A model generated the notes under the pieces. The model did not search any database. It was not told the origin of the DNA and saw only the letters and a program-made list of their open reading frames with translations. A stretch of DNA of 64,000 bases from a virus. Position numbers and translations under genes: made by a program. The stretch's first letter is position 1. Every line of letters starts with the position of its first letter. The stretch covers positions 1 through 64,000 of IMG/VR virus record IMGVR_UViG_3300028802_000008. One strand, given 5' to 3'. Shown in pieces: positions 145 through 25,357 of this stretch.

Positions 145-942
145 TCAGACCGGGAGAGCGGCAATCTCGGCGGGTGAGAGATTGCAGATATCCGATACGG
201 TCCGCGCTACGTTCCCGGTGGGACGCAATTCGATGCAATGGTCGTAGGGGTTTTTCCAACCATTCTTTTCCTCTCCCCAACCATCGCAATGTTGAATCGC
301 GTTCGTGAGAGTCGGGAACCTCTCACCATCGGGAGTGACGAACGAGAGATTGACCGGATGACCAGGGGTCAATTCCGATTCGCAATGAATCGTCACCATC
401 GATGGGGGAGTGATTCCCGGCCGACCGAGCGTAACGAATGCCATACCATCGGCGCGGCTATGGTCCCGCGGGATGTTGCGCCGCGTGCGCTTTTTGGTCG
501 CGGCGGTCGCGGCAGGGGTCGGCGCAACCATTGCGGCAACATTCTCGGCGGTCATCGGGGTCACCCGCTCTAGAGCGTTCGCGAACATTGCCGCGACATC
601 ATCGGCGGTCAGACCATCGAACGATTCCACCGATTCGGTAGCGCCGAGACTGAACGCGGCCAGACCATCCACCGCGCGGACGATTCGATCGATGATGACC
701 GCCGCGGGGTCGGGACCGGTCGGCGCGGAGAGGATGACCGGGAGAACGTTCCCGAGCGCCGAATCGGTCGGGATGAGAGCGGCAATCTCCACGATTGCCG
801 ATTGACGCCGAGCGGGTGACCATTCCCGAACGATTGCGATAATCGAATCGTTCTCTCGGTCGGATGCCACGATTGCGGCAACATCGGCGGTCATCGGGAT
901 GGCCGCGGGTGCGGTCGGGGTAGTGCGATTCGGGGTAGACAT
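145..942 (-). CDS. Hypothetical protein, 265 aa, leftward
   Basis: I do not recognise the family. The reading frame is supported by a Shine-Dalgarno-like AGAAAGGGC about 9 bases before the ATG, a good promoter further upstream (-35 TTGCGC, 17-bp spacer, -10 TATAGT) and a terminator hairpin just past the stop. The protein is Ala/Thr/Ile-rich in its first 150 residues, has a short basic stretch (KKRTRRN) near residue 158, and a C-terminal part with a possible beta-rich domain. It is the only minus-strand gene in the left arm and is separated from the rightward genes by about 2 kb of mostly noncoding DNA, so it may be the end gene of a divergent transcription unit. No function is proposed. Confidence 0.6.
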   Translation of the reverse strand: MSTPNRTTPTAPAAIPMTADVAAIVASDRENDSIIAIVREWSPARRQSAIVEIAALIPTDSALGNVLPVILSAPTGPDPAAVIIDRIVRAVDGLAAFSLGATESVESFDGLTADDVAAMFANALERVTPMTAENVAAMVAPTPAATAATKKRTRRNIPRDHSRADGMAFVTLGRPGITPPSMVTIHCESELTPGHPVNLSFVTPDGERFPTLTNAIQHCDGWGEEKNGWKNPYDHCIELRPTGNVARTVSDICNLSPAEIAALPV

Positions 943-1510: not shown

Positions 1511-1534
1511 CTTTCCGAAAAATTTCCCCGGACG

Positions 1535-1569
1535 CTTATGTAGGCAAGCGCTGTTGAGCTTGGAAATTT
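1535..1569 (+). repeat. Dispersed bipartite repeat, copy 1
   Basis: CTTATG, 15 bases, then GAGCTTGGAAATTT. This is one of about a dozen copies of an element whose consensus is CTTATG-N15-GAGCCTGAAAT. The spacer AAGCGCTGTT is also shared with other copies. Confidence 0.6.
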
Positions 1570-1596: not shown

Positions 1597-1624
1597 TTGC
1601 AAACCCGAAACCGCTTGATATGAT
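1597..1624 (+). promoter_or_regulatory. Rightward promoter, leaderless type
   Basis: TTGCAA (1597-1602), a 16-bp spacer and TATGAT (1619-1624). The expected start of transcription falls at or next to the ATG at 1631, so the transcript of the small gene would be leaderless, a common arrangement in actinobacteria. Confidence 0.55.
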
Positions 1625-1630
1625 GAGGTC

Positions 1631-1777
1631 ATGAAGTCAAACGCACCCACCACACAAACCGCCAAGCCGCTGGCCGACCGGATCGCCGCTTACAAGCCGT
1701 ACGAGCCATTCAAGATGGTGACCGGAATCCGCACCCACCAAGCACACTTGCACGACGGGATGCGAGCCGATGACTGA
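1631..1777 (+). CDS. Small protein, 48 aa, probable leaderless mRNA
   Basis: The family is not recognised. The frame runs ATG to TGA with a strong G/C bias at third codon positions, as in the neighbouring genes, and starts 7 bases after a good -10 hexamer, with no Shine-Dalgarno site. The product is hydrophilic, with a basic/aromatic centre around residues 20-30 (AAYKPYEPFK). It stands alone between the origin-like repeats and the GC-rich low-complexity DNA that follows. It could be an initiator-associated or regulatory miniprotein, but nothing in the sequence decides this. Confidence 0.45.
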   Translation: MKSNAPTTQTAKPLADRIAAYKPYEPFKMVTGIRTHQAHLHDGMRADD

Positions 1778-2159
1778 CGGAAGCGTCGGCTTGCTTCCCG
1801 ACGGGAGCGGGGCTTGCCAAGCGACGGGAGCGGGCGGGATGCGGCTTGGGTAAGCGGCCAGTCGGCGGAGGCGGCTTACAAGCGGAGCGGGAGCGGGCGG
1901 GGCTTGCAAGCGGGAGCGGGGGCGGCTTGGGCTTGCGGAATTTAAGTTAAACTGCTTATTTGTGGCGGCTTGGTTGAGCCTGAAATTTTGGGGAACTTAC
2001 GCTTATTTGTGGCGGCTTGGTTGAGCCTGAAATTTTGGGCAGCTTTCGCTTATTTGTGGAAGCTCGGTTGAGCCTGAAAATATTGGGCTTACAAACACAA
2101 TCCACTACTTGTGGACCGCTTAGGGGGGTCGAACAATTTTGAGCGTTTGGGCCGCTGGG
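1778..2159. other. Noncoding low-complexity and tandem-repeat region
   Basis: No gene is visible. Bases 1778-1935 are an irregular array of GGGAGCGGG and GGCTTGC words. Bases 1940-1960 are AT-rich, then three 47-bp direct repeats follow (1955-2095) with a decayed fourth (2104-2121). A very long transcript beginning near here could include the structured RNA that follows. Confidence 0.6.
1955..2095 (+). repeat. Three 47-bp direct repeats (iteron-like)
   Basis: Units begin at 1955, 2002 and 2049. Each opens with CTTATTTGTGG, continues with GAGCCTGAAA about 20 bases later, and so also carries the dispersed bipartite repeat with its 15-bp spacing. The first two units are nearly identical; the third differs at a few positions. 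A partial fourth unit (ACTTGTGGACCGCTTAGG) is at 2104-2121. The TTTGTGG words resemble the core of DnaA boxes. Confidence 0.75.
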
Positions 2160-2860
2160 TCGATTACTTGTGCTGGCCGCGATAGACTGGCCGCGTAGCG
2201 GTCAGTTCGACCGACCGCCACAAAGTCCCGGAAAGTTGGGACCGCACCTTGACAACCAAAGACCCCGCTGCTGGTGGAACGTCCTAGAGGGATGAACCAC
2301 TACCACCACCTAAGCCCCAGTACTTACTGGCCGTTCGCAAAGCTCAACGGTTTACCCTCGGGTATGACGAAAAGGTATTAGGTGGAGGATGGACCGGCTG
2401 AAAGCTATGGGCTTGAGCATTGCTCGCCTAGTGCTGACAGATTCCCGGTCGGCAGAAAGCATGGCACTTGTGCCCTCTGCTACTGGCGTGACTGCCATAG
2501 GGGGTCTTAGGTGGTGGCACATTGAAAAGTGAAGATATCCGAAAGCACGGAGTAAGTGCAGGCGTTCGTTGACCTATACGGTCGGTGAAATGAGCCCGCG
2601 CTGCCGTAGTAAGTTGACCTAGTGGTGTACCGGGTTAGCGCAACAAGACGACGGAGTGGCTGTCAAAGTCAACCTGAGTCGTAACGTGGAACGAGATCAA
2701 AGTCCGAGGGCTTTGGTGAGGACTGTCCTAGTAACTAGCGCCGATTCCGACCGGTAGAACTAACAATAAGCTACGATCGTAGATGATTAAGTTCCGGGGA
2801 TTAGCTCAATAAAGTAATCGCAAAATCACGAGTAGAGTCCGCACTTACAGATGTGCTTTC
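2160..2860 (+). ncRNA. Giant structured noncoding RNA candidate (GOLLD-like)
   Basis: About 700 bases with no open frame but dense nested complementarity. The clearest helix pairs 2303-2318 with 2501-2517 (16 bp, one bulged base), closing a 180-base domain. Others: 2186-2194 with 2198-2206 (9 bp); 2317-2321 with 2326-2330; 2433-2438 with 2448-2453; 2461-2466 with 2493-2498; 2613-2618 with 2668-2673; 2648-2652 with 2677-2681; 2698-2704 with 2709-2715 (loop CGAG); 2799-2803 with 2815-2819; 2841-2844 with 2853-2856. GAAA-containing single-stranded stretches are frequent. Size, intricacy and phage context fit the GOLLD class, known from lake actinobacteria and phages, but I could not compare with the family alignment. 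ROOL-like or a new class are alternatives. The strand is inferred from the rightward neighbours. Confidence 0.6.
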
Positions 2861-2898
2861 GGTTGCCAATGGTGTCTCTTGGTCGGTTTACGGGACGT

Positions 2899-3012
2899 GG
2901 CAGGGGTCGGGAGAGCGCTCCCGGTCGGGAGGGGATTACCCCTCCCGGTCGGCGCTCTAGTCGGCGCTCGGGAGGGGATTACCCCTCCCGGTCGGCGCTC
3001 CCGACCCCTGCC
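2899..3012. repeat. Large compound palindrome
   Basis: A 14-bp outer inverted repeat (2899-2912 with 2999-3012) encloses two copies, 43 bp apart, of a perfect 22-bp palindrome with arms CGGGAGGGG and CCCCTCCCG around ATTA (2926-2947 and 2969-2990). The remainder is GGTCGGCGCTC words like those near 1200. It lies between the structured RNA and the first gene of the left-arm operon and could be a transcript-end structure, a cruciform, or a protein-binding array. Confidence 0.75.
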
Positions 3013-3014
3013 AT

Positions 3015-3094
3015 CCCGAAAGCATCCGAACTTGTATCGGACGCTTTCGGGGTGCGGGAATCCCCCACGCCCACTTTGACCAGGGAGAAACACT
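3015..3094 (+). promoter_or_regulatory. Hairpin plus conserved leader before the first left-arm gene
   Basis: CCCGAAAGCATCCGA (3015-3029) pairs with 3037-3051 (one mismatch), loop ACTTGTA. It is followed by a mini-hairpin (GTGCGGGAATCCCCCAC) and a leader ending CCAGGGAGAAACACT before the ATG. The same order, long stem, short GGGA/CCC stem, leader with GGGAG or AAGGAG, recurs before other left-arm genes with different stem sequences, which suggests an RNA-level role. Confidence 0.6.
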
Positions 3095-3430
3095 ATGACT
3101 TACCACACGCCCGATGAGATCGCTGCTTACCTTGGTGAGCCGGTCGACTTCACTCACGACATCGGGTTGATCCACACTTGCGTGCGGATTGTCGGGCGCT
3201 TTGCTCCCGGCGATCCTCAACGCGACGCGGTCCTTGTGAACGACGCTGCCGATTCGATCTTTGACTTTGTCGGAGATTACTTGGCAGAGCCGGTGACGGC
3301 CTACTTCGGACATACACTTGCCGAGTACCGTCCGTCACTTTGGAGCCGGACAAAGCGACGCTTTGTTCGGATCATCCAAAGCCTGGACGGCTTGCTGTTC
3401 TCGCTCCGGTCGCTTGGACCGCAGCGATGA
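3095..3430 (+). CDS. Hypothetical protein, 111 aa
   Basis: The family is unknown. The ATG follows a good Shine-Dalgarno (AGGGAGA, spacing about 8) in the conserved leader. The protein is acidic and helical in its first 80 residues and ends in a basic amphipathic segment (SRTKRRFVRII, near residue 86-96) that might touch membrane or nucleic acid. Its stop overlaps the next start as ATGA (3427-3430), so the two are probably translated together. It is the first gene after the structured RNA candidate. Confidence 0.7.
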   Translation: MTYHTPDEIAAYLGEPVDFTHDIGLIHTCVRIVGRFAPGDPQRDAVLVNDAADSIFDFVGDYLAEPVTAYFGHTLAEYRPSLWSRTKRRFVRIIQSLDGLLFSLRSLGPQR

Positions 3431-3642: not shown

Positions 3643-3744
3643 GGCACCGACTTCGGTCGGTGTCGTCCCATAAGGCAGCGAACTTGTGTCGCTGCCTTAT
3701 GGGGCGAGGGATAAGCCCACGTCCACTTACCAGGGAGACAAACC
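3643..3744 (+). promoter_or_regulatory. Double hairpin and conserved leader
   Basis: A 9-bp stem with a UUCG tetraloop (3643-3664) is followed at once by a perfect 15-bp stem (3667-3681 with 3689-3703, loop ACTTGTG). Then come the short GGGATAAGCCC stem and a leader ending CCAGGGAGACAAACC. There is no T-run after either stem, so simple termination is unlikely; RNA processing, stabilisation or regulated translation are better guesses. Confidence 0.65.
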
Positions 3745-3983: not shown

Positions 3984-4120
3984 CGCCCCACAAGCATTCA
4001 AAGCTAAGTTCAAAAAACAAACCACGCTTATGTGGGTATGTTCGGTTGAGCCTGAAATTTGAACGCTTGTGGGGCGAGGGAAAGTATCCCACGTCTAAAC
4101 CGACACCAAGGAGATACAAA
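3984..4120 (+). promoter_or_regulatory. 19-base stem with the dispersed repeat in its loop, then leader
   Basis: CGCCCCACAAGCATTCAAA (3984-4002) pairs with 4058-4076 at 18 of 19 positions. The 55-base loop is nearly all one extended copy of the bipartite repeat (core 4027-4060). The stem is followed by GGGAAAGTATCCC and a leader ending ACCAAGGAGATACAAA before the ATG at 4121. An alternative stem, GGGCG (3952-3956) with CGCCC (3984-3988), would exclude the main one. Confidence 0.65.
4027..4060 (+). repeat. Dispersed bipartite repeat, loop copy
   Basis: CTTATG-N15-GAGCCTGAAATTT. The 20 bases before it (AAGTTCAAAAAACAAACCAC) recur almost unchanged before the copy at 4575, so these two copies share an element of about 55 bp. 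Confidence 0.7.
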
Positions 4121-4543
4121 ATGCACATCATTGTCATCGGAAATGTCGTGGAGGGATTCAAGTTCTTTGGACCCTTCTCCGACATCAAAACGGAAGCGCA
4201 GGCGATCTTGGACGAGCACCCTGAGGGTGTTTGGACCGAGCTTCAGTCAGTGCCTTCGGACGAGGCAAAGTACCTCAAAAGCTTCGGCATCAAGAAAGTC
4301 GAAGTGGCCCGCGGTACCTTCTGGACTGTGATCCAGTACTTGCACACTTACGGTGATACCGGTTCTTCCGTGATCACCGAAGGTGGCGACCATCACTGGC
4401 TAAGTGAGGACGCAGCCAAATCCGCTAAGCGGGTCTACGAAGTCTGCACCGCTTACCACGGTAAGTCGCCCAGTGAAGTGATGGAGGCTTTCGGGAACTA
4501 CTTCCCGGAAGAGTTCTGGCCCCTTGTGGAGCCGATGTACTGA
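4121..4543 (+). CDS. Hypothetical protein, 140 aa
   Basis: The family is unknown. The start is set by the conserved leader (AAGGAGATACAAA then ATG). The N-terminal 30 residues resemble the strand-helix start of small phage or plasmid proteins that report a time or environmental field (IIVIGNVVEGFKFFGPF then a helix). A central VIQYLHTYGD segment and an amphipathic C-terminal helix are visible. There is no catalytic motif or membrane segment. It is followed by a copy of the dispersed repeat and by the promoter-bearing hairpin of the AAA+ gene. Confidence 0.7.
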   Translation: MHIIVIGNVVEGFKFFGPFSDIKTEAQAILDEHPEGVWTELQSVPSDEAKYLKSFGIKKVEVARGTFWTVIQYLHTYGDTGSSVITEGGDHHWLSEDAAKSAKRVYEVCTAYHGKSPSEVMEAFGNYFPEEFWPLVEPMY

Positions 4544-4574
4544 AGACAAGCCAAAGTTGAAAAACAAACCCACG

Positions 4575-4608
4575 CTTATGTAGGTAAGCGCTGGTGAGCC
4601 TGAAAGTT
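4575..4608 (+). repeat. Dispersed bipartite repeat, copy before the AAA+ gene
   Basis: CTTATG-N15-GAGCCTGAAAGTT with the shared 5' extension AAGTTGAAAAACAAACCCAC. The first part also forms a small hairpin (GCTTA, TAAGC). It abuts the inverted repeat that carries the extended -10 promoter. Confidence 0.7.
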
Positions 4609-4735: not shown

Positions 4736-6268
4736 ATGTCAATCACCAAGTCATGCTTGGATTGCCCGTCACTTCTGACGAAGGACGAAGCGGAAACATT
4801 CTTTGGAGTCGCCAACGCGGCTCCGATGTGCTCCCGCTTTGGCCACATCTTCGGACATGTGGGCAATCAAAGTGTGTATCTGGAAGCTGCGACCAAGATG
4901 GCGGCGGGCTGCACGTCTTATGGACAGCCTGCTGCATCGAGCCCAGCTTCCGACCTCACTTTGTCGTGGTTCAACCCAAGGCCGGAGTTGCTCAACGCGA
5001 CTTCGACTGGTCCCAGCTTCTGCGGGGACTGCAAGAACTACGACGAAGTGATGAACGGTTGTGCTGCAACGGGAAGAGTGATCTTCCCGGAGCGCGTCAA
5101 GCAGGAAGCCGTCAACTGCGCTTGGAGCCGTATCGGCGCACCAAGTGAAGCAGTTGGCAGCAAGCTGGACGCGTGGGGCACGGCTGCTCAAGTGTTCGTG
5201 CGGAACGCGACGACGACGCCAAGTGCGCCGCCGCCGCCGCCACCGAAGACGGTCAAGAAAGTGAAAGCCATCTTCGACCCTGCGACTTATTCTTCCGACG
5301 CTCCGGTGACGGAAGATCACAAGAAGCAGGGCATTCGGGCGTGGTTCAAGCTGGAGACAAAGCGAGGCAAGGTCATGTACCTGCCGATCTTTGAAGGATC
5401 GTTCTTCGGTGAGAATGAAGCGTTGATTCCGACTGCCAAGTCGGAGCACGGCGATCCTACCTTGTATATCGACCACGCGAACTTGATCGAAGAGTTCGCC
5501 ATCATGGTCTACAAGAAAGACCTGAACTTGGTCATCGAAGGGGAGCCGGGAACCGGTAAGACGGATGGTTGGCGTTACTTGGCACATCGTCTCAACATGC
5601 CTTTCGTGCGCCTTGCGTACAACGAGGCAAGTGAGTCGGATCAGTTCCTCGGCTTGTACGAGTTCGATCCCATCAAGGGAACGTACTTGAATCCGGGGAT
5701 GCTTCCCGAATGGTGGGTGCAGCAATGCTTCCTCCTTTCGGATGAGCCAAACACGCCAGACTCCAACGCGATCATGCAAGCGTATCGGTCGATGAACGAC
5801 TCCTCAAGGGAGTTGATCGTCTACAAAGAGCGCTTCCGTCGTCACGATTACTGCTTCCACGCGATGGCGATGAATCCACACTGGGACTTCCGGAACATCG
5901 GAACGAAGCCACTTGCCAGTGCGGATTCCCGCAGGCTTGCATTCTTCTGGATGCCAAACCCGGATGAGAAGATGCTTCGACAGATCATCTCTTCCACGGT
6001 TGAGCGTCTTGATGGTGTCGAGCCTGACAAGAAGCTTCTCGATGTGATGATCAAGATCGGCAACGATCTTCGCAACATGTCGAAAGAGGGTACGCTTCCG
6101 GACTTCTGGACCGTATCCCAAGAGATCAAGGTCGCCCGTCTCGTGGATGACTTTGGTCTGGAGGGTGCGTACAAGCGTGCCTACTTCAACTACATCTCGC
6201 CCGACGACGCGGAAGCGGCTTTGGGCGCGATCAAGTCCCACATTCCTTATGGAGCGGACTTCCAGTAA
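4736..6268 (+). CDS. MoxR/CobS-like AAA+ ATPase with N-terminal Cys-rich module
   Basis: A 510-aa ATPase. Residues 1-130 hold many cysteines (CLDC at 7-10, C32, C59, CGDC at 96-99, C109, C128), probably zinc-binding. A proline run (165-170) leads to the AAA+ module: Walker A GEPGTGKT at 269-276, Walker B LLSDE at 333-337, sensor-1 asparagine in AMAMNP near 380, and arginines 399-400 as finger or sensor-2 candidates. MoxR/CobS-type ATPases remodel or load partners carrying a VWA domain; the next gene encodes one, so the two likely act together. The ATG has GGAGG at spacing 6. The zinc module is extra to the usual MoxR architecture and may choose the target. The substrate is unknown; cobalt chelation is unlikely since no cobaltochelatase large subunit is present. 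Confidence 0.85.
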   Translation: MSITKSCLDCPSLLTKDEAETFFGVANAAPMCSRFGHIFGHVGNQSVYLEAATKMAAGCTSYGQPAASSPASDLTLSWFNPRPELLNATSTGPSFCGDCKNYDEVMNGCAATGRVIFPERVKQEAVNCAWSRIGAPSEAVGSKLDAWGTAAQVFVRNATTTPSAPPPPPPKTVKKVKAIFDPATYSSDAPVTEDHKKQGIRAWFKLETKRGKVMYLPIFEGSFFGENEALIPTAKSEHGDPTLYIDHANLIEEFAIMVYKKDLNLVIEGEPGTGKTDGWRYLAHRLNMPFVRLAYNEASESDQFLGLYEFDPIKGTYLNPGMLPEWWVQQCFLLSDEPNTPDSNAIMQAYRSMNDSSRELIVYKERFRRHDYCFHAMAMNPHWDFRNIGTKPLASADSRRLAFFWMPNPDEKMLRQIISSTVERLDGVEPDKKLLDVMIKIGNDLRNMSKEGTLPDFWTVSQEIKVARLVDDFGLEGAYKRAYFNYISPDDAEAALGAIKSHIPYGADFQ

Positions 6269-6277
6269 GCCTGGACC

Positions 6278-6397
6278 GTCGGCTTCCCCTGACAAGGGAG
6301 GCCGAACGGCCCGATGAGCACTCAAAGTTCACGCTTTGAGTGCTCATCGGACTGCAAAGTCCAAAACAACCGACACCAGGCAACCAAGGAGATCAAG
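6278..6397 (+). promoter_or_regulatory. Two hairpins and conserved leader before the VWA gene
   Basis: A 9-bp stem (in 6278-6307) is followed by a perfect 17-bp stem, arms 6311-6327 and 6334-6350, loop TTCACG. A leader containing ACCGACACCAGG and CCAAGGAGATCAAG leads to the ATG. No T-run follows. The architecture matches the other left-arm modules while the stem sequences differ. Confidence 0.65.
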
Positions 6398-8734
6398 ATG
6401 CAAATCACACAGGACAAGTTCGACCAAGGTCGACGTGCTCTGGAGCGCTTCACCAAGCTGATCCAAGTCCGATACAAGCCGCTCTTGCGAGCGGTGACGG
6501 GCAACGAGAAGCTGGACGTGAAGCCTCACTCATCACAAGCGGTGACAGACGGAAAAACCGTCTGGCTCCCGGTCCCCTTGGCGCTTGGAGACGAGACACT
6601 GGAACACGACAAGTCCTTGTGTGGACTGCGTGACTTGGCAGACATGAAAATGCTTTGCCCGATGTGCGAAGTCGAAGATGGGATAGACGCAATGGTCTTC
6701 CACGAATCGGCCCATATCACGGAGAAGTCCTTTGAGAAGCTAAACGGACGGACGTTCCTCAAGATCGTCCAGCCGATAGTCGAGCCTTACCTTGATCAAC
6801 TCCCGCTGGACAAGCGAGACAAGATCGAGCGTGAGATTCGTCAAGAGACCGCTCCGATGATCGCATCGAGCAAGCTGGACCCTTGGCTGCCGTTCGCGTT
6901 GAACATCATCGAAGACATCTACGTCAACCGTCGCTTGTATAAGTACCGGGAGGGTGTGGAAGTTGCGATGAAGCTCACGTCCCGCAAGACATTCGAGAAC
7001 GGAATCGAAGATCTCAATTCCGAAAGCAACCACCTGTGGAAAGACAATGATCCCACCGCGCAAGCGTTGATCAGTGCCTACCTTGCAGGCCAGGGGCTTG
7101 AGGACTTGGGATCTTGTCTGCATCCCGATCACGACCTCACAAACGATCCGGAAGTGTTGGCGATTGTCGGGAAGATTCCCGGCCATTGTGCGATCCAAGA
7201 TCGCGTGGAGTTGGCGATGAAGTTGATGATGCACTTGCGGTCCTTGGGCTATTGCCCGACCAAAAGCACATCTCCTCTTCCTCCTCCTCCTCCTCCGACC
7301 GAGCCGCAAGGCGAAACCGAGCCGCAGCCACCGCAAGGTGAAAGCGAACCGGAGCCGGGTAAGGGTGAGAGTGGTGACCAGGAAGGTGAAGCCGAAGAGG
7401 ATGACGAAGCCGAGAGCAATCACGGCGAAGAGTCAAACGACGAAGCTGATCCTTCCGGGAACCCGGAAGCGTCGGAGTCCGAAGATGAAGGCGACGAAGA
7501 GGAAGATGGAAGCGAAAGCTCCGAGTCTGACTCTATAAGTGAAAGCTCCGTCGAGCCTGAAAATGAGGACGAAGACGAAATGACGGGCAAGGGACGCGGA
7601 CATTCGGAAGAGACCGAAGAGTCTGACGACGACGAAGGCGAAAGCGAAGATGGTCAAGTTGAGGGTCAAATCGGGGAAGAGCCCGTCGAGCCTGAAAATG
7701 AGACCGGAAGCACTGAGCCAACGGAAGAGTCGACTTGGGAGCCTCCGACGGACGATGAGGTTGACGAAGCGCTAAACAGAGCGCGGAAGATGTTGGAAGA
7801 GATCATGGGCCACGATGAATACGGTCCAAGCAACTCCAACTCAAGTCAGGATGGAGACGTGATCAAGCAGGTGATCGAGCAGGCTGGCTTCGACCATCCT
7901 TCCGAAAGCCTGCGTGGCGGCGTCGATCTTCAAACGAAGAACGACTACCCGTACAACGATCCCAACTTGTATGCACCGGAAATCAAGGTGCCCAAGCACA
8001 TGCTGACTCCTCCGCTCTCTCGCTTGCGTGTCGTGTTCTCCTCCAACAAGAAGACCGGAATTGAAAGGTCGCTCAAGTCTGGCACTCGCCTTGACACGAT
8101 GCACTTGTATCGTGCCGGGACGGATGACAAGCGAATCTTTGGAAAGCGCAACGTCCCCAAGAACCGTGACTGGTTCGTGCTTATCGGGTTGGACTTCTCC
8201 GGAAGTACCGATGCAAACGGGGCCGACGCTGCCCACAAGATGGCGGGCCACGCGGTCGGCGAACTTCTCTATCAGCTTGACATCAAGTTCGAGATGTACG
8301 CCCACACAAGTGGAACGAAGCGTGACCAGGATGGCAATACTCAACTCGCTTTGGAGCATGTGCTCATCAAGGGCGTGGATGAGAATTGGAGAGACAAGAG
8401 CGTTCAAAGGATGCTCTTCTCTCAACGCGGTCGTGGCTGCAACTTAGACGGCCACTCGTTGGAACAGTATCGCAAGCGTATCGAAGCTCAACGAGCGACG
8501 GACAAACTCCTCCTCTACTTCACGGACGGCGCAATGCCTGCCTTGAACGCGCATGAGGAACTTCCCATCCTCAAAGAGAACATCGAGATCTTGCGTCGAA
8601 GCCGAACTACCTTGATCGGCGTCGGCTACCGGACGGATTCCCCCAAGCAGCATGGCTTGGACACAATCGAAATCAATGGTCCGGAAGATATTGCTTCCAT
8701 CGTCAAGGGCTTGGAGGATCGTCTCCTGCGCTAA
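6398..8734 (+). CDS. HExxH and VWA/MIDAS protein, CobT/DUF2201-like partner of the MoxR ATPase
   Basis: A 778-aa protein. Residues 1-280 are helical and contain HESAH at 102-106, an HExxH-type metal site seen in putative metallopeptidase-VWA proteins, near a CPMC pair. Residues about 290-450 are a Pro/Glu/Asp/Ser-rich linker, extremely acidic as in CobT. The C-terminal 230 residues form a VWA domain: MIDAS motif DFSGS near 598 and TDG near 706 for metal coordination. MIDAS domains bind client proteins through a divalent ion and are handled by MoxR ATPases. Two GTCGAGCCTGAAAATGAG words in the linker code match the dispersed repeat. Whether the HESAH site is catalytic is unknown. Confidence 0.8.
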   Translation: MQITQDKFDQGRRALERFTKLIQVRYKPLLRAVTGNEKLDVKPHSSQAVTDGKTVWLPVPLALGDETLEHDKSLCGLRDLADMKMLCPMCEVEDGIDAMVFHESAHITEKSFEKLNGRTFLKIVQPIVEPYLDQLPLDKRDKIEREIRQETAPMIASSKLDPWLPFALNIIEDIYVNRRLYKYREGVEVAMKLTSRKTFENGIEDLNSESNHLWKDNDPTAQALISAYLAGQGLEDLGSCLHPDHDLTNDPEVLAIVGKIPGHCAIQDRVELAMKLMMHLRSLGYCPTKSTSPLPPPPPPTEPQGETEPQPPQGESEPEPGKGESGDQEGEAEEDDEAESNHGEESNDEADPSGNPEASESEDEGDEEEDGSESSESDSISESSVEPENEDEDEMTGKGRGHSEETEESDDDEGESEDGQVEGQIGEEPVEPENETGSTEPTEESTWEPPTDDEVDEALNRARKMLEEIMGHDEYGPSNSNSSQDGDVIKQVIEQAGFDHPSESLRGGVDLQTKNDYPYNDPNLYAPEIKVPKHMLTPPLSRLRVVFSSNKKTGIERSLKSGTRLDTMHLYRAGTDDKRIFGKRNVPKNRDWFVLIGLDFSGSTDANGADAAHKMAGHAVGELLYQLDIKFEMYAHTSGTKRDQDGNTQLALEHVLIKGVDENWRDKSVQRMLFSQRGRGCNLDGHSLEQYRKRIEAQRATDKLLLYFTDGAMPALNAHEELPILKENIEILRRSRTTLIGVGYRTDSPKQHGLDTIEINGPEDIASIVKGLEDRLLR

Positions 8735-9812: not shown

Positions 9813-9985
9813 ACGGCGCAAGGATGATCGGTTGTGAAGTCCACGACCGAAAGAAAAACACAGCGACAGCCAAGCATGTCAACGACAGGCTAAGGCGTCG
9901 GAGCAAGCGAATCGAGAAGGAAAGCATCCACAAGTCCGTCAAGGACGGGTCGCTGCTTTACTCCTCGCTTCACAAGATGGCTTGA
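9809..9985 (+). CDS. Small basic protein, 58 aa
   Basis: The family is unknown. I chose the GTG at 9809 because it overlaps the previous stop as GTGA; an ATG at 9824 would shorten it by five residues. The protein is strongly basic (RLRRRSKRIEK in the middle) and could bind DNA or RNA. It is the last gene before the hairpin module of the Ku gene. Confidence 0.6.
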   Translation: MNGARMIGCEVHDRKKNTATAKHVNDRLRRRSKRIEKESIHKSVKDGSLLYSSLHKMA

Positions 9986-9997
9986 ACATTGCGGATC

Positions 9998-10095
9998 GGG
10001 GAAAAACCCATAAGGCGCGACGCTGTCGAGCCTGGGTTTTTCCCCCTTCCGGAGTATCCAAGCTCCACACCGACAATCAACCAAGGAGACAAACC
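9998..10095 (+). promoter_or_regulatory. 13-bp stem with dispersed repeat in the loop, then Ku leader
   Basis: GGGGAAAAACCCA (9998-10010) pairs perfectly with TGGGTTTTTCCCC (10033-10045); the loop carries a divergent copy of the bipartite repeat (10007-10040). A short GGAG/CTCC stem and the leader ACCGACAATCAACCAAGGAGACAAACC follow, then the ATG at 10096. This repeats the repeat-in-loop design seen at 3984-4076. Confidence 0.65.
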
Positions 10096-10941
10096 ATGAG
10101 CACCAACTTCATTGCGGACGCCCCAGAACCTTCGCGTTCGACGGGCACAATCACCCTTTCTTGGGGATTGCTGAACATTCCGCTTTCGATCTATACCGGA
10201 ACGGAAGAGACGAATGTCAGCCGCAAAGAGTTTGTAGACGGCGACGTTGAAAGGCCCGCGGGTCGAGCAGTGATTGACAAGATCTCGCAAGAGATCATCG
10301 ACTCTTCCCGCGTGGTTCGGATGGCTGAGGCAAGCAACGGAACGTTCGTCGTCCTTACGGATGATGAGCAGGCTGCTTGCACAGGCGTTCGGAACGTTGC
10401 CGAAGTTGTGACTTTCATCGACAACCGTGACATCTTCAACTACATGCCGAACAAGCTGATGCAGGTACGGCCGAAGCGAGACAAGGGAATTCCGAATCCT
10501 GCTGGGGCCAAGGCGTTCTCGCTTCTCATCTCTGCGATGGCAAGCCAGAGCGTCACGGCGCTGGTCAAGGTCGCACTTCGCGGCCCTGCTCAGTACGCGC
10601 TTCTAACGGCGACGGGCGATCTCTTGTTCGTCCATTCGTCCGACGGAGTACGCAAGCCACTTGCGATGGGCTTGACGGCAGTGACTCCTCAAGAGCAGGA
10701 TATGGCAAGGAACTTGATCAGTGCCATCGGCATTGCCCAAGCTCCCCATATTCCAGACGTGACGGCGCAAGCGATCGGACAGTACGTCGATCAGAAGGCA
10801 GGCGGAAACACGCCAGCCATGCAAGCAGCGCCGCCCGCGACCAACGGGACGGACTTGATGGATGAACTGATGAAGTCAATCGAAGCCAAGAAGAACGCTC
10901 CCAAGTGGGGCGCTCCGAGTGGGCTTCCGGTAAACGTATGA
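10096..10941 (+). CDS. Phage Ku-like DNA end-binding protein
   Basis: A 281-aa homologue of bacterial Ku. Ku binds double-strand ends as a ring-shaped homodimer and, in bacteria, recruits LigD for non-homologous end joining. The N-terminus (TITLSWGLLNIPLSIYTGTEE region, residues 17-37) matches the start of the Ku beta-barrel (SISFGLVNVPVKLY type), followed by FVVLTDDE and KAFSLLISAM segments at the expected places. It lacks a long lysine-rich C-terminus and ends with a Met/Asp amphipathic stretch. Mycobacteriophages Omega and Corndog are known to carry Ku, probably to circularise their genomes with host LigD. No ligase gene is seen nearby. The start is set by AAGGAGACAAACC. Confidence 0.82.
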   Translation: MSTNFIADAPEPSRSTGTITLSWGLLNIPLSIYTGTEETNVSRKEFVDGDVERPAGRAVIDKISQEIIDSSRVVRMAEASNGTFVVLTDDEQAACTGVRNVAEVVTFIDNRDIFNYMPNKLMQVRPKRDKGIPNPAGAKAFSLLISAMASQSVTALVKVALRGPAQYALLTATGDLLFVHSSDGVRKPLAMGLTAVTPQEQDMARNLISAIGIAQAPHIPDVTAQAIGQYVDQKAGGNTPAMQAAPPATNGTDLMDELMKSIEAKKNAPKWGAPSGLPVNV

Positions 10942-13935: not shown

Positions 13936-14765
13936 GTACCCCCGAAGAGTTCCAGAAGTATGTGTTGGATCGTGGCCGAAGCCACGCCACGGCCATGAAC
14001 TACGCGTCCGACCTCCGCAAGTTCCAAGGGTGGGTTTCCCAGGAAGGGGGTGGGGGGTCAAACTCATTTTCGGATGACGTTGAGGCGTTTATCAATGAGC
14101 TTCGGGGCAACCCTGAAGTTTCGGTGGCGTCGATCCTCCGCTACATGTCATCGTTGCGAAGCTATTGGCAGTACGCGTCGCGCACCGATCCGACGATCAC
14201 GCAACCGTTCGTGGACTACAAGGGACCGCGCACACACAAGCTGTCGTCGCACCCACTGCCCGGAATGATGGCTGACGTGGATGCGATGATCCGGTCGACC
14301 TACCGGCCGCACCACAAGATTCTGATCGCTCTGTGCGGGTACGCGGGCTGTCGCGTGACCGAAGCCCGCAGTATCACGCCCCGATCCTTGTTCCAGGATC
14401 ACCAGGGGAACTGGTGGCTGGGGATCCACGGCAAAGGCGGCACCTATCGGGAAGTTCCCGTCATGGACAAGCTGTTCGACCTGCTGGACGACGCGCCACC
14501 GACCGATCCCGATGAGCCTTATGTCAGGATCAACGATCGAGCGGCAAGAGCGGCCATCACGAACATTGGAGTGCGAGCACGAATCTCACGTCCGGTCGCC
14601 AGCCACGACCTCCGTCACACGTTCGGCTCCTGGGTCTACGGACAGACGAAGGATCTCCGCGTCACTCAGGAACTTCTGGGGCACGCGGACTCCCGAACCA
14701 CTCAGGGCTACACACACATCGACCAGGAAAGGAAGCGAGCGGCAATCATGGGGGCGTTGACGTGA
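13932..14765 (+). CDS. int: Tyrosine site-specific recombinase (integrase)
   Basis: A 277-aa tyrosine recombinase. All catalytic residues are present: R141 (GCRVTEA), K168 (HGKGG), H225 and R228 (HDLRHTFG), H251 (LGHADS) and the nucleophile Y260 (TQGYTH). Residues 1-90 form the SAM-like core-binding domain. There is no long N-terminal arm-binding domain, so it is nearer in size to XerC/D-like or short phage integrases. It cuts and joins att or dimer-resolution sites through a 3'-phosphotyrosine. I chose the ATG that overlaps the Cys-rich gene (ATGA). No att core was identified. Its presence implies a temperate phage or plasmid-prophage lifestyle. Confidence 0.92.
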   Translation: MSTPEEFQKYVLDRGRSHATAMNYASDLRKFQGWVSQEGGGGSNSFSDDVEAFINELRGNPEVSVASILRYMSSLRSYWQYASRTDPTITQPFVDYKGPRTHKLSSHPLPGMMADVDAMIRSTYRPHHKILIALCGYAGCRVTEARSITPRSLFQDHQGNWWLGIHGKGGTYREVPVMDKLFDLLDDAPPTDPDEPYVRINDRAARAAITNIGVRARISRPVASHDLRHTFGSWVYGQTKDLRVTQELLGHADSRTTQGYTHIDQERKRAAIMGALT

Positions 14766-14974
14766 CCCCCGAGATGCTGTTGCTTCAGAAGCACTTCCCA
14801 TTCCGCAAGAACGGTCACTTCCGACTGCCGTTCACCTACAAGGGTGATCAAGTAGCGAAAACTTTCATTCAGGCGCACCTGTGCAACACTTGCGCTGCAA
14901 TCGTCCCATCCACTGGGCTGGTCAAACATGCCAAATACCACGGGGGAGCCATCCCCCAGAAAGAAGGAAGATGA
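14762..14974 (+). CDS. Small zinc-finger-like protein, 70 aa
   Basis: It starts at GTG overlapping the integrase stop (GTGA). CNTC at about 41-44 and HAKYH at about 55-59 form a plausible C2H2 zinc site. The N-terminal half is basic and aromatic. Coupled to the integrase gene, it may modulate recombination or transcription; function unproven. Confidence 0.6.
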   Translation: MTPEMLLLQKHFPFRKNGHFRLPFTYKGDQVAKTFIQAHLCNTCAAIVPSTGLVKHAKYHGGAIPQKEGR

Positions 14975-15544
14975 ATGAGGAAACGTGCGGTTCGGACCGC
15001 GTTACGAAACGTCCTATTGATCGGAGTAGTAGGTATGGCTGCTGGATGCACGCCAGAAGAAATGAATGCCTGGCTCGCCTGGCACGATGCAGATCCCGAA
15101 TCCGCTATCGCCTGGATCGAGCGACCCGAGGTTGCCGAAGACCTCACTCTCGACGCCAACCAGGATGGGGAGTTAGTCCAAGCTGAGAGGCTGGCCCCGC
15201 CACCACCACCAGTTCCGACCGGTCTGAACGGACTTCCGTTTGCGTCCGGTGGCCTGAGTGACTGCGCCGAAATGATGTTCTACGCCAACCAAGTTGGTCT
15301 CCCCGGTCGCTTTGAGGGCATCGGCTGGAGAGAATCCAACTGTCGAAATGAAGATGGAGTTCACACGTCGTGCTGCTGGGGGTATTGGCAGCTTCACCGG
15401 ATGCACTTGCCGAAGCCCCAGTGTGACGCCTGGTCGGCATCGGACATCAACAGTGATGATCCCCTTGAAAAACAACGCCAAGCTTGTGTCGCCAAGGCAC
15501 TTTATGATGCGGCGGGATTGAGTCCTTGGAGCGCAACAACATGA
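14975..15544 (+). CDS. Lipoprotein with lysozyme/transglycosylase-like domain
   Basis: A 189-aa protein. It has a basic N-terminus, a hydrophobic core (VLLIGVVGMAAG) and a lipobox cysteine at about residue 25, so it should be lipid-anchored outside the cytoplasmic membrane. After a Pro-rich linker (74-81), residues 92-189 resemble lysozyme-like/SLT domains: a GIGWRESNC segment with the candidate catalytic Glu, then CCWGYWQLH. Phage lipoproteins of this kind can block DNA entry of rival phages (Ltp-type exclusion) or act in lysis. Its gene is far from the lysis cassette, which favours exclusion. The last residues are duplicated at the end of the following HNH gene. Confidence 0.7.
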   Translation: MRKRAVRTALRNVLLIGVVGMAAGCTPEEMNAWLAWHDADPESAIAWIERPEVAEDLTLDANQDGELVQAERLAPPPPPVPTGLNGLPFASGGLSDCAEMMFYANQVGLPGRFEGIGWRESNCRNEDGVHTSCCWGYWQLHRMHLPKPQCDAWSASDINSDDPLEKQRQACVAKALYDAAGLSPWSATT

Positions 15545-15978
15545 CACCTTGCCGTGAATACCAGGGCACCATCAGCAGCGCGGGGTATGGGGTTCGACAT
15601 GGTGAAGCCGCCAAAAGATTCCAAACGGCCTACGTCCATCGACAGATCATGATCATGGCTGGTCACAACATCGAAGGGAAGGAGGTCATGCACATCTGTG
15701 ACAATCCTCGTTGCTTCCGGTACGACCATCTCCGGGTGGGAACTCACGCTGAGAACATGGCTGATATGAAAGCGAAGGGGAGATACAAGGACAGGTCTCA
15801 AGGGAAGTTGACTCCCATCCCTCACGGGACCAACGCTGGGTATGCCCGTCATCAACATCGAGGCGAGATACCTTGTGATCAATGCAAAAAGGCGCGTCAG
15901 GAGTACGACCGTGAACGTCGTGTCGCAAAAGCACTTTATGATGCGGCGGGGATGTCGCCCTGGAGTGCGACCTCATAG
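15541..15978 (+). CDS. HNH homing-type endonuclease
   Basis: A 145-aa HNH nuclease of the phage homing type: VMHICDNPRCFRYDHLRVGT (about residues 50-69) holds the His and Asn-region residues of the HNH fold, and a C-terminal CDQCKK adds zinc ligands. It starts inside the lysozyme-like gene (ATGA overlap). Its last 18 codons repeat the end of that gene (VAKALYDAAG, SPWSAT) with 20 identical bases and synonymous changes elsewhere. This is what an endonuclease gene inserted near the 3' end of the lipoprotein gene would leave. It probably promotes its own spread by cutting alleles lacking it. Confidence 0.8.
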   Translation: MTPCREYQGTISSAGYGVRHGEAAKRFQTAYVHRQIMIMAGHNIEGKEVMHICDNPRCFRYDHLRVGTHAENMADMKAKGRYKDRSQGKLTPIPHGTNAGYARHQHRGEIPCDQCKKARQEYDRERRVAKALYDAAGMSPWSATS

Positions 15979-21146: not shown

Positions 21147-21370
21147 AGATTCACGTCACCTTCGACGCTGACGATCTGATCAATCTTCAGTTCACCGGTA
21201 ACACATCAGGAGCAACGGGCCGTCAGTACATGACTCAGGGCAAGGACAGAGAGTCCCGTCCTTCGTTCTACGCCGAAGGCGCAGAACTGCGTCAGATCGC
21301 TGACCACTTCGATCAACTTGCCACCGAGGCGGGGTACCCGCCCCATTGGCGAATCGAGGTCGGATTGTGA
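21143..21370 (+). CDS. Hypothetical protein, 75 aa
   Basis: ATGA overlap upstream and GTGA downstream. A possible small beta-alpha domain: KIHVTFDADDLINLQFTG strands, then a helix ELRQIADHFDQLATEAG. The family is unknown. Confidence 0.6.
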   Translation: MKIHVTFDADDLINLQFTGNTSGATGRQYMTQGKDRESRPSFYAEGAELRQIADHFDQLATEAGYPPHWRIEVGL

Positions 21371-21651
21371 GACGTATGAAGTGGCTGATTCCCGCACTGC
21401 TCGTGCTCGCCGCGTGCGGCACGGACGGCGAAGAGTTCAACGATGCCCCCAAGCTGAACAACGTGGACACTGGTGCAGTACGCATCAGCTTCCCCGACGG
21501 GTTCAGCAACGTGGCAGCGAAGTGTTTCGGCACCGACATGGTCTACTCATCCACCAACTCCCCCTCAGGGAGCGGGCGTTCGATGGCCGTGTCGTCCAAT
21601 CACCCGTGGTGCGCCGACGGGATTCTGACCGAGGAAGAGCAGAAGCAATGA
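21367..21651 (+). CDS. Small lipoprotein, 94 aa
   Basis: Starts at GTG (GTGA overlap). A signal peptide (RRMKWLIPALLVLAAC) ends in a lipobox with the Cys about residue 17, so the mature part is membrane-anchored outside. The remainder is Ser/Asn-rich with two more cysteines. It could be a superinfection or surface-modifying lipoprotein. Confidence 0.65.
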   Translation: MRRMKWLIPALLVLAACGTDGEEFNDAPKLNNVDTGAVRISFPDGFSNVAAKCFGTDMVYSSTNSPSGSGRSMAVSSNHPWCADGILTEEEQKQ

Positions 21652-23069
21652 CCGGCGCAACCCGGAAGTCTCTCGTCAAGGTCAAGGACGAGGTTGACTT
21701 CTACCAGCATCAGGTGGACGGCGTTCGTCTGGGCAACCGGATGGCGTCGTTCATCCTGGCTGACGAGATGGGCTTGGGGAAGTCCCTCACTGCGGCCACC
21801 GTGGCGGCGATCGACTTTGAACGTGGGTACGCGCAGCGAGTTCTGATCATCTGTCCGTCGTTCCTCAAGTGGAACTGGGCAGAGGAACTCGATCACATGA
21901 CCCACTTCACTTACACGATCTATCACGGGACTCCAAAAGAAAGAGAGAAGATCCGCGACGATTTCGATTCTGACATCCTTATTACCAACTACGAGCAGAT
22001 CGTCAACGACTTCGACGCTCTGAACGTGATGGGATGGGACATCGTCATCGTGGATGAGGCTCACTTCATCAAGAGTAAATCCTCTAAAAGGTCGAAGGCT
22101 ATCCGGCAACTGAAGCGCGGGCGTATGTTCCTGCTGACCGGCTCGCCGATGCTCAACCGTCCCGATGAACTGTGGGCGCTCTTGAACGCTTGCGACCCCA
22201 ACCGGTTCGCCCGGTACTACCCGTTCGTCAACCGATTCTGTGTGATGGGTGGGTGGCAGTCCAAGCAGATCGTCGGAGCCAAGAACAAGGACGAACTGCG
22301 CGGCCTACTGTCGGAGTACATGGTCCGACGGCTCAAGAAGGATTGCCTGGATCTCCCGGACAAGCAGGTCATCTCCATCATCGTGGAACTGCACCCGGAG
22401 CAGCGGAAGATCTACGACAAGATGGACGCTGAGCTTCGTATCGACATCCCGAACGACCCGGACCCGATGGAGGCTGAGAACATCCTGGTGAAGATGCTTC
22501 GGCTGAAGCAGATATGTGCCACGCCTGCGTCGATCGGACTCCCCGACGACTCGTACAAGTTGGACAAGGCGATGGAGATGATCACCGAGTTCGTCACCGA
22601 TCCCGACGACCACACACCGGTCGTGGTGTTCACACAATTTCGTGCCGTCCAGACGGCTATGGGGTCACGTCTGGACGGCGCTGGCATACCGTACTGGGTG
22701 CTGAACGGCGACACGCCGAAGGACAAACGGATCGAACTGGTGAACGAGTGGGCGGCTCACCCGCAGCCTGGCGTCATCATGATCATGCTCCAGATGGGGG
22801 TGGGGCTCAACCTCACCGCGGCCAACAAGGCGATCTTCATCGATCGTCTGTACGTTCCCAAACTGAATGAGCAGGCCGAGGATCGCATCCACCGCATCGG
22901 GGCCGATCTCACCAAGCCGGTTCAGGTGTTCAACATCATCGCCAAGAACACGGTCGAGGAACGGATTGAGAAGATCCTGGCGGCGAAGCGAAAGCTGTTC
23001 GATTCGGTGGTCGAGGTCGACGCAGACTGGAAGCGTGAACTCATCAAGCAACTGGCGAACGCGTCATGA
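21648..23069 (+). CDS. SNF2-family DNA translocase/helicase
   Basis: A 473-aa protein with the full SNF2 core: motif I DEMGLGKS (39-46), motif II DEAH (about 135-138), motif III LLTGSPMLN, and the C-terminal RecA lobe with VVFTQFRA, GVGLNLTAAN and RIHRIGA (motifs IV-VI). It is a minimal core without accessory domains. Phage SNF2 proteins translocate on duplex DNA to remodel protein-DNA complexes in replication or recombination. ATGA overlaps on both sides. Confidence 0.93.
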   Translation: MTGATRKSLVKVKDEVDFYQHQVDGVRLGNRMASFILADEMGLGKSLTAATVAAIDFERGYAQRVLIICPSFLKWNWAEELDHMTHFTYTIYHGTPKEREKIRDDFDSDILITNYEQIVNDFDALNVMGWDIVIVDEAHFIKSKSSKRSKAIRQLKRGRMFLLTGSPMLNRPDELWALLNACDPNRFARYYPFVNRFCVMGGWQSKQIVGAKNKDELRGLLSEYMVRRLKKDCLDLPDKQVISIIVELHPEQRKIYDKMDAELRIDIPNDPDPMEAENILVKMLRLKQICATPASIGLPDDSYKLDKAMEMITEFVTDPDDHTPVVVFTQFRAVQTAMGSRLDGAGIPYWVLNGDTPKDKRIELVNEWAAHPQPGVIMIMLQMGVGLNLTAANKAIFIDRLYVPKLNEQAEDRIHRIGADLTKPVQVFNIIAKNTVEERIEKILAAKRKLFDSVVEVDADWKRELIKQLANAS

Positions 23070-24239: not shown

Positions 24240-24250
24240 AAAGCTGCTTG

Positions 24251-25357
24251 ATGGCTAATTCCCACATCGCCACCGTCTCGGCCGCACTGCTGCACGAGGC
24301 ACTGAACAGAGCGAACAAGGTTGCCCCCACCAAGGGGAATGCTATGGACCGCGCTGCTGGCATCCAGATCGACTTCCGACTGGACGAGGCCCATATCCGG
24401 GCCACCGATCTCGATGTCACCTTCTACCAGAAGATCCCGGTCGAACAGGTCAGCGAGGAATGCGTCTTGCGTCTGTCGTCGGTGGTGCCACCGTTCGTGG
24501 CATCGCTGTCGATGGACAAGAATCAGGTGATCCGATTCTTCCGGAACGACCAGAAGCGCATCATCATCCAGTACGGCAAGACTCGGACCAAAGCGACCAT
24601 TCCCATGATCGTCGGGGAGTACCCGACGGTGAACTGGTACGACTACGAAGTGATGACCGACGCCAGTGACCTTGGCAGCAAGATCGCATCGGTTGCGTGG
24701 GCCACCGAGAACGACGCATCGGGCGTGCTGTCCGGGATCAAGATCGATGGCAAGTGGCTGGAGGCTCTGTCCTCCAAGAACGCTGCTCGCATCCAGTGCG
24801 AGGTCGAGAGCGACGTGACGGTGATCGCCGTCCTGAAGTCTCTCGTTCCTCTGGTCAAGTCCGGTTCCCGGCTGCGGATGATGACCCAGGAGGGTCGCAT
24901 CATCGTCGCGCTGGATGAGATGACCCAGGTGACATCCACCACGGTGCTGGGGGAGTGGCCGAATCTCGTGGAACGACTGGAACGCTTTGAGTTCCCGAAC
25001 TCGGTGACGATCCGCAAGACACGGTTCGCCGAGGCACTGGGACGCATCCTGAGCTTCGTTCGCAACGACCGACTGCCACGAGCCAAGGTAACCATCACCA
25101 ATGACTCCATCGACGTGGTGCTGTCTGGCACCTTGAATGGTGACGTGCAGGACTCCTGCGCTATCTCCAGCCGGGAAGGGATCGAAGAAGATGTAGAGTT
25201 CACCTTCAACCCGACATGGCTGTTGGAGGCCATCGACACGTTCCCCGGAGCCTCCGTCAAGATCGAATACAACGGAAACCTTCAGCCAATCCGGCTGAGC
25301 GAACCATCCACAAGTTATGAGGCATACGTCATGCCCATGAGAGACATCGATGAGTGA
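24251..25357 (+). CDS. dnaN: DNA polymerase III sliding clamp (beta subunit) homologue
   Basis: A 368-aa protein of clamp length with three repeated subdomains: the start (HIATVSAALLHEALNRANKV), the middle IASVAWATENDASGVLSGIKI (the typical ...RPVLNGIxI site), and the end SYEAYVMPMRD, which matches the YLVMPMR C-terminal signature. It should form a homodimeric ring around DNA and tether the polymerase. Phages of actinobacteria seldom bring their own clamp, so it may replace or redirect the host one. I chose the ATG at 24251. Confidence 0.9.
   Translation: MANSHIATVSAALLHEALNRANKVAPTKGNAMDRAAGIQIDFRLDEAHIRATDLDVTFYQKIPVEQVSEECVLRLSSVVPPFVASLSMDKNQVIRFFRNDQKRIIIQYGKTRTKATIPMIVGEYPTVNWYDYEVMTDASDLGSKIASVAWATENDASGVLSGIKIDGKWLEALSSKNAARIQCEVESDVTVIAVLKSLVPLVKSGSRLRMMTQEGRIIVALDEMTQVTSTTVLGEWPNLVERLERFEFPNSVTIRKTRFAEALGRILSFVRNDRLPRAKVTITNDSIDVVLSGTLNGDVQDSCAISSREGIEEDVEFTFNPTWLLEAIDTFPGASVKIEYNGNLQPIRLSEPSTSYEAYVMPMRDIDE

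Follow-up and report, generated by a model that had tools for sequence, protein, structure and literature searches.

A non-coding segment and probable control hub in an actinophage genome, more safely read as regulatory DNA than as a proven giant RNA

Our analysis shows that positions 2101-2900 of this virus record are genuinely non-coding; they lie within the control hub of an actinophage. The segment is more safely read as a region of DNA-level control than as a proven giant RNA, because it folds no better than ordinary genes and no relative of it was found. DNA-level control is also the most economical reading, and we consider it probable that the hub acts at the DNA level between the early and the late genes of a phage related to the Gordonia CS/DF phages. 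The parent IMG/VR record comprises 77,319 bases, of which the window analysed here, i.e. the whole stretch studied, covers bases 1-64000; coordinates are those of the window unless the record or another sequence is named.

The region sits between leftward late genes and rightward early genes, with the ORF 145-942 on the minus strand on one side and the early genes from 3095 onward on the plus strand on the other; in the record, the terminase is encoded on the minus strand and the ATPase on the plus strand. Tandem elements, the non-coding body, hairpins and genes follow each other in this order, a layout that would suit an RNA gene as well as a control region. The features of the hub and its surroundings are as follows:

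145-942, minus strand: leftward ORF of 265 aa flanking the hub on the side of the late genes, without a family match, codon score positive over most of its length
1533-1568, plus strand: single hub element, dyad CGCTTATGTAGGCAAGCG then TTGAGCTTGGAAATT, upstream of the promoter-like site at 1597 and of the ORF at 1631
1597-1624, plus strand: sigma-70-like promoter site TTGCAA-16-TATGAT, just 5' of the ATG at 1631
1631-1777, plus strand: possible small ORF, 48 aa, coding according to the codon model, no family match
1954-2094, plus strand: 47-bp element in three tandem copies (GCTTATTTGTGG..GGTTGAGCCTGAAATTTTGGG), directly 5' of the non-coding segment
2101-2900, plus strand: largely repeat-free non-coding segment, candidate RNA or control DNA, with the most non-coding composition in the first 5 kb
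2898-3054, no strand assigned: strong hairpins rich in GC that close the region (GGCAGGGGTCGGGAG..CTCCCGACCCCTGCC), including 18-nt arms at 3012-3029/3037-3054
3095-3430, plus strand: first larger rightward early ORF past the region, 111 aa, no family match
4025-4060, plus strand: lone copy of the hub element ahead of the ORF at 4121
4573-4608, plus strand: another lone copy of the hub element, ahead of the ATPase gene
4736-6268, plus strand: AAA ATPase (PF07728, phrog_5424), used as the anchor for finding related phages
6314-8734, plus strand: CobT-like protein (phrog_5298), partner of the ATPase

Further copies of the 47-bp element precede early genes, and the hairpins at 2898-3054 fold with a z-score of about -8 to -10. 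Intergenic hairpins with the loop ACTTGTR are recurrent ahead of early genes, at 3012-3054 and 3670-3705. Elsewhere the phage encodes a Ku-like protein with a Ku70/Ku80 beta-barrel domain (PF02735, E 8e-13; ORF 9982-10941, plus strand), a SNF2-type helicase (21318-23069, plus strand), a homologue of the DNA polymerase III beta clamp (24248-25357, plus strand), and a tyrosine recombinase (PF00589; 13827-14765, plus strand), which makes a temperate lifestyle or a resolvase function possible. On the minus strand of the record, an AEP-TOTE primase domain at 71.9-72.8 kb (L008:11899-12759), near the GC-skew minimum at 72.3 kb, adjoins a CHC2 zinc-ribbon/DUF3987 protein at 69.7-71.9 kb (L008:9680-11920).

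The preliminary description of this DNA reported about 700 bases devoid of any open frame, and this is borne out by the data. At a 60-aa threshold, 1910-2844 is the longest ORF-free gap of the window; each of the six frames of 1901-2900 contains 11-21 stops, and in the codon model the best of the six frames scores between -0.10 and -0.24 per codon, compared with a mean of +0.21 inside long ORFs. The codon model was trained on the long ORFs of the same phage, and among the values printed for the first 5 kb those of 2101-2900 are the lowest. No family match was detected in Pfam for the two longest frames of the region, and no conserved protein frame was found across related phages. Stops, codon score and the Pfam search of these two short frames rule out a hidden protein. 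They also argue against the view that the region is a long leader of the early operon, or the remains of a lost gene, devoid of a function of its own: the codon score is far below coding in all six frames, each of which carries stops, and the two longest frames resemble no known family. The promoter-like site at 1597, a weak one (one found versus 1.6 expected by chance), does read toward the region and the first larger early ORF begins at 3095. Among the readings considered here we hold this one to be the least probable.

One pairing within the segment clearly exceeds chance. The 16-bp helix with a single bulge noted earlier between 2303-2318 and 2501-2517 pairs as described, with 12 Watson-Crick pairs (2303-2314/2506-2517), a bulged U at 2505, and the remainder formed by 2315-2318/2501-2504. 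None of the 60 shuffles and none of the 24 genome windows attained its duplex energy of -32.8 kcal/mol, and the frequency of a 12-bp Watson-Crick stem spanning >150 nt was 0.3% among dinucleotide shuffles and 3.3% among genome windows. The arms of this helix, the motif they contain, and the arms of a second predicted long-range helix are:

2303-2318, plus strand: 5' helix arm, holding an inverted copy of the motif TTAGGTGGWGG (from sequence and duplex energy)
2378-2388, plus strand: second copy of TTAGGTGGWGG, preferred predicted partner of 2306-2313 (from the ensemble fold)
2501-2517, plus strand: 3' helix arm, holding the third copy of the motif (from sequence and duplex energy)
2539-2559, plus strand: 5' arm of the second predicted long-range helix (domain II, 11+8 bp, P ~0.97), pairing with 2841-2862
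2841-2862, plus strand: 3' partner arm, pairing with 2539-2559 in the same predicted helix

The 11-bp motif occurs exactly three times in the 64-kb window, always inside 2303-2517 (215 bases), inverted at 2303 and direct at 2378 and 2507. Since the helix arms are copies of this thrice-present motif, the 5' arm is able to pair with either direct copy. In the predicted ensemble the helix 2303-2318/2501-2517 has P = 0.13, because 2306-2313 prefers 2378-2385 (P 0.86 for the alternative partner at 2378) and 2501-2508 prefers 2259-2266; according to the same prediction, forcing the helix costs only 2.2 kcal/mol. The three-copy motif could be a two-state RNA switch, or it could simply represent three protein-binding sites.

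The dense nested complementarity claimed for the region did not rise above background: both its energy and its long-range pairing are ordinary for this genome. The whole region folds with a z-score of about -3.0 to -3.6 over runs (-3.4 on the plus strand, -3.6 on the minus strand); background 300-nt genome windows have a mean z of -1.3, 19% of them lie lower than -3, and one coding window, in the ATPase gene, goes down to z -7.9. As many as 53% of the other 800-nt genome windows have an equal or lower minimum energy, and the count of 31 confident pairs spanning >250 nt is also attained in 14% of genome windows and 9% of shuffles. Both strands fold equally well relative to shuffles, i.e. there is no strand preference, whereas a functional RNA rich in G-U pairs would tend to favour its own strand. 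The domain II helix is not significant, being reached by 18% of shuffles. Nor is the closing helix predicted for 2102-2126/2876-2900, which at -27.5 kcal/mol falls short of the best duplex of five of six shuffles. If the region is an RNA, its best predicted outer boundaries, marked by this non-significant helix, would be about 2102-2900 and not 2160-2860. Single-sequence folding is uninformative for this genome, and following the comparison with genome windows the whole-region z-score was discarded as evidence of RNA.

These results bear on the possibility, which we regard as unlikely but worth weighing, that an orphan large structured RNA of ~700-800 nt with two big domains would be made from the plus strand of the hub. 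Such an RNA might possibly adopt two mutually exclusive folds, with CCACCACCUAAG at 2303-2314 paired either to 2506-2517 or to 2378-2385, and by analogy it would act as GOLLD or ROOL do, being an abundant RNA of the phage that perhaps forms an RNA-only assembly, while belonging to neither family. It would fit a segment that is strongly non-coding, almost repeat-free (in contrast to the hub elsewhere) and of G>A>C>U composition, that follows directly on three tandem elements and precedes strong hairpins, and that contains a helix above all shuffles as well as predicted end-to-end and domain-closing helices with P 0.96-0.99. On the other hand, fold energy and long-range pairing lie inside the genome background, helices as good as the end-closing and domain II ones also arise in shuffles, neither strand is preferred, no homologue was found, so that there is no covariation, and the strong helix can be explained by the three-copy motif. 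A more specific version, in which the region would encode a giant phage RNA (~0.8 kb) of a new, orphan class, built of two large domains, the 5' one switching between two exclusive long-range pairings predicted by the models, appears to us more doubtful still.

Membership in GOLLD, ROOL or another Rfam family was rejected on the basis of covariance-model searches. A scan against Rfam at gathering thresholds gave no match, and at E<=10 the interval 1900-3100 yielded only weak matches outside the core (2861-3063), none of them to GOLLD, ROOL, OLE or HEARO, the four families suggested as a check in the preliminary description. The models of GOLLD (RF02032, conserved 3' region) and ROOL (RF03087) detected nothing at E<=10, either in 1900-3100 or in the whole record; these dedicated searches are weak negatives on their own, as no control genome (14 in the case of GOLLD) passed the cut-off. 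According to ARAGORN, the window contains no tRNA or tmRNA. GOLLD is a phage-encoded RNA of about 800 nt without an ORF, and ROOL is likewise phage-encoded, large and without an ORF; both are often located near tRNA islands (PMC12286853), an association that for GOLLD is frequent and not obligatory. Our region resembles GOLLD in its presence in a virus record, its ORF-free stretch 1910-2844, and a putative size of about 800 nt, and it shares with ROOL the phage origin, large size and lack of an ORF. It differs from both in having no covariance-model match at E<=10, and from GOLLD also in having no tRNA in the window and no covariation support, and the suggested GOLLD membership is therefore unsupported.

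No homologue of 2101-2900 was found in the phage, plasmid, IMG/VR or bacterial sequences searched. Searches with blastn against phages and plasmids and single-sequence scans of IMG/VR with the ATPase and the CobT-like protein yielded none, and comparison with the whole records of 18 related phages and two further ones gave no credible match. The 16-mers of the region, and a 17-mer in genome contigs, had matches without credible extended similarity, and all 36 matches of a 16-mer of the 47-bp element were unrelated. A covariance model of 2391-2518 produced no credible second match. The 395 genomes of the class of an Arthrobacter also contained no homologue, in a search that had no positive control. 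The close IMG/VR relatives G001 and G002, whose terminases (91% and 77%, respectively) are much closer than those of cultured phages, show no match to the first 18 kb and 43 kb of this record, hence the homologous region apparently lies outside their contigs.

The ATPase and CobT-like genes exhibit ~30% identity to those of Gordonia, Tsukamurella and Rhodococcus phages, and the terminase is closest, among cultured phages, to those of Jumbo and Camerico (45-47%). Codon-model gene calls identified a large non-coding region of 0.75-2.6 kb in all relatives examined, Perlina, Demosthenes and Gmala1 included (e.g. 754 nt in GTE7, 1,663 in Monty, 1,917 in G009, 2,527 in G008 and 2,587 in G003); in Jumbo and Camerico such regions are present at both ends. 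In Monty and in two metagenome phages, G003 and G008, the hub coincides with the early/late divergence; this placement follows from where, and on which strand, the ATPase and the terminase are encoded, and refers to these three only. Copies of the Monty hub are present in 69 Gordonia phage records, and none of the matches listed carries an annotated feature there. The alignment of this hub contains numerous short repeats, together with conserved inverted repeats of local extent on both strands, and shows no nested fold of ~700 nt. Within this hub (Monty 14018-15680, L080), columns 1050-1350 of an 11-phage alignment contain a conserved multi-branched element of ~120 nt with z -5 to -7 on both strands. 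In Gordonia phage GTE7 (JN035618.1, L002:1722-1790), we also found a match to the Pistol ribozyme above the gathering score, just after Orf83.

The tetranucleotide CTAG is strongly avoided in our record (0.3/kb genome-wide) and in relatives (0.07/kb in G001), yet reaches 6.25/kb in our hub, and it is enriched in the hubs of most relatives, including Monty, Jumbo and Demosthenes, though not in those of GTE7 and Perlina. As most relatives' hubs share this enrichment, it was rejected as a signature of RNA. Thus, our hub resembles those of the Gordonia CS/DF phages (Monty, Jumbo, Demosthenes, GTE7) in the ATPase/CobT pair, the similar terminases and the large non-coding region, as well as in the position at the divergence (Monty), the CTAG richness (Monty, Jumbo, Demosthenes) and the presence of repeats and hairpins. 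It differs in that 2101-2900 shares no detectable sequence similarity with them and in that the Monty hub is richer in repeats. Equivalence of the hubs is based on position and composition, since no sequence relative of ours was found.

Actinophages offer a further precedent, as non-RepA mycobacteriophages are reported to possess non-coding, transcribed RNA origins of 400-500 nt adjoining parABS (PMC7157519). By analogy, a non-coding RNA of ~400-500 nt near the hub would prime or license replication. Our region is likewise a non-coding segment of an actinophage, situated in the hub, and the cumulative GC-skew minimum (72.3 kb of the record) is ~7 kb away; however, the known cases are transcribed and lie next to parABS, and no origin hallmark was shown here. 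We consider an RNA-based origin very improbable.

The interpretation of the region as a DNA-level control hub draws on the relatives' non-coding hubs, the CTAG enrichment, the ordinary fold energy and the lack of strand preference. It is further suggested by the fact that the sole significant helix pairs copies of the 11-bp motif, three of which are present in both orientations, by the 47-bp element upstream of early genes, and by the GC-skew minimum at a distance of ~7 kb. Several observations fit it less well: 2101-2900 is nearly repeat-free, its G>A>C>U composition and its flanking tandem elements and hairpins would likewise be in keeping with an RNA gene, a search for strict DnaA boxes gave none, the hubs of GTE7 and Perlina are not enriched in CTAG, and the relationship to other hubs is one of position and composition, not of sequence. 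As a control hub, 2101-2900 would work mainly as DNA, between leftward (late) and rightward (early) transcription. The 47-bp elements at 1954-2094 and the single copies at 1533, 4025 and 4573 would be candidate binding sites for an early regulator or an initiator, and the 11-bp motif copies at 2303, 2378 and 2507 a second set of candidate sites. The GC-rich hairpins at 2898-3054 may end or pause transcription ahead of the first larger early gene, and the hub may also contain a replication origin or a packaging start. We infer these roles, i.e. protein binding, regulation, origin or packaging, and likewise any transcript, from the arrangement of the elements.

Given that even a coding window of this genome reaches z -7.9, single-sequence folding cannot prove a giant RNA here. 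Should the region encode a structured RNA after all, the very short list of known giant RNA classes from phages (GOLLD, ROOL) would grow, and the question of whether RNAs of this kind form cages could be tested afresh. As it stands, the region marks a non-coding, CTAG-rich hub, with no annotated feature among the matches listed, that is present in several actinophages.
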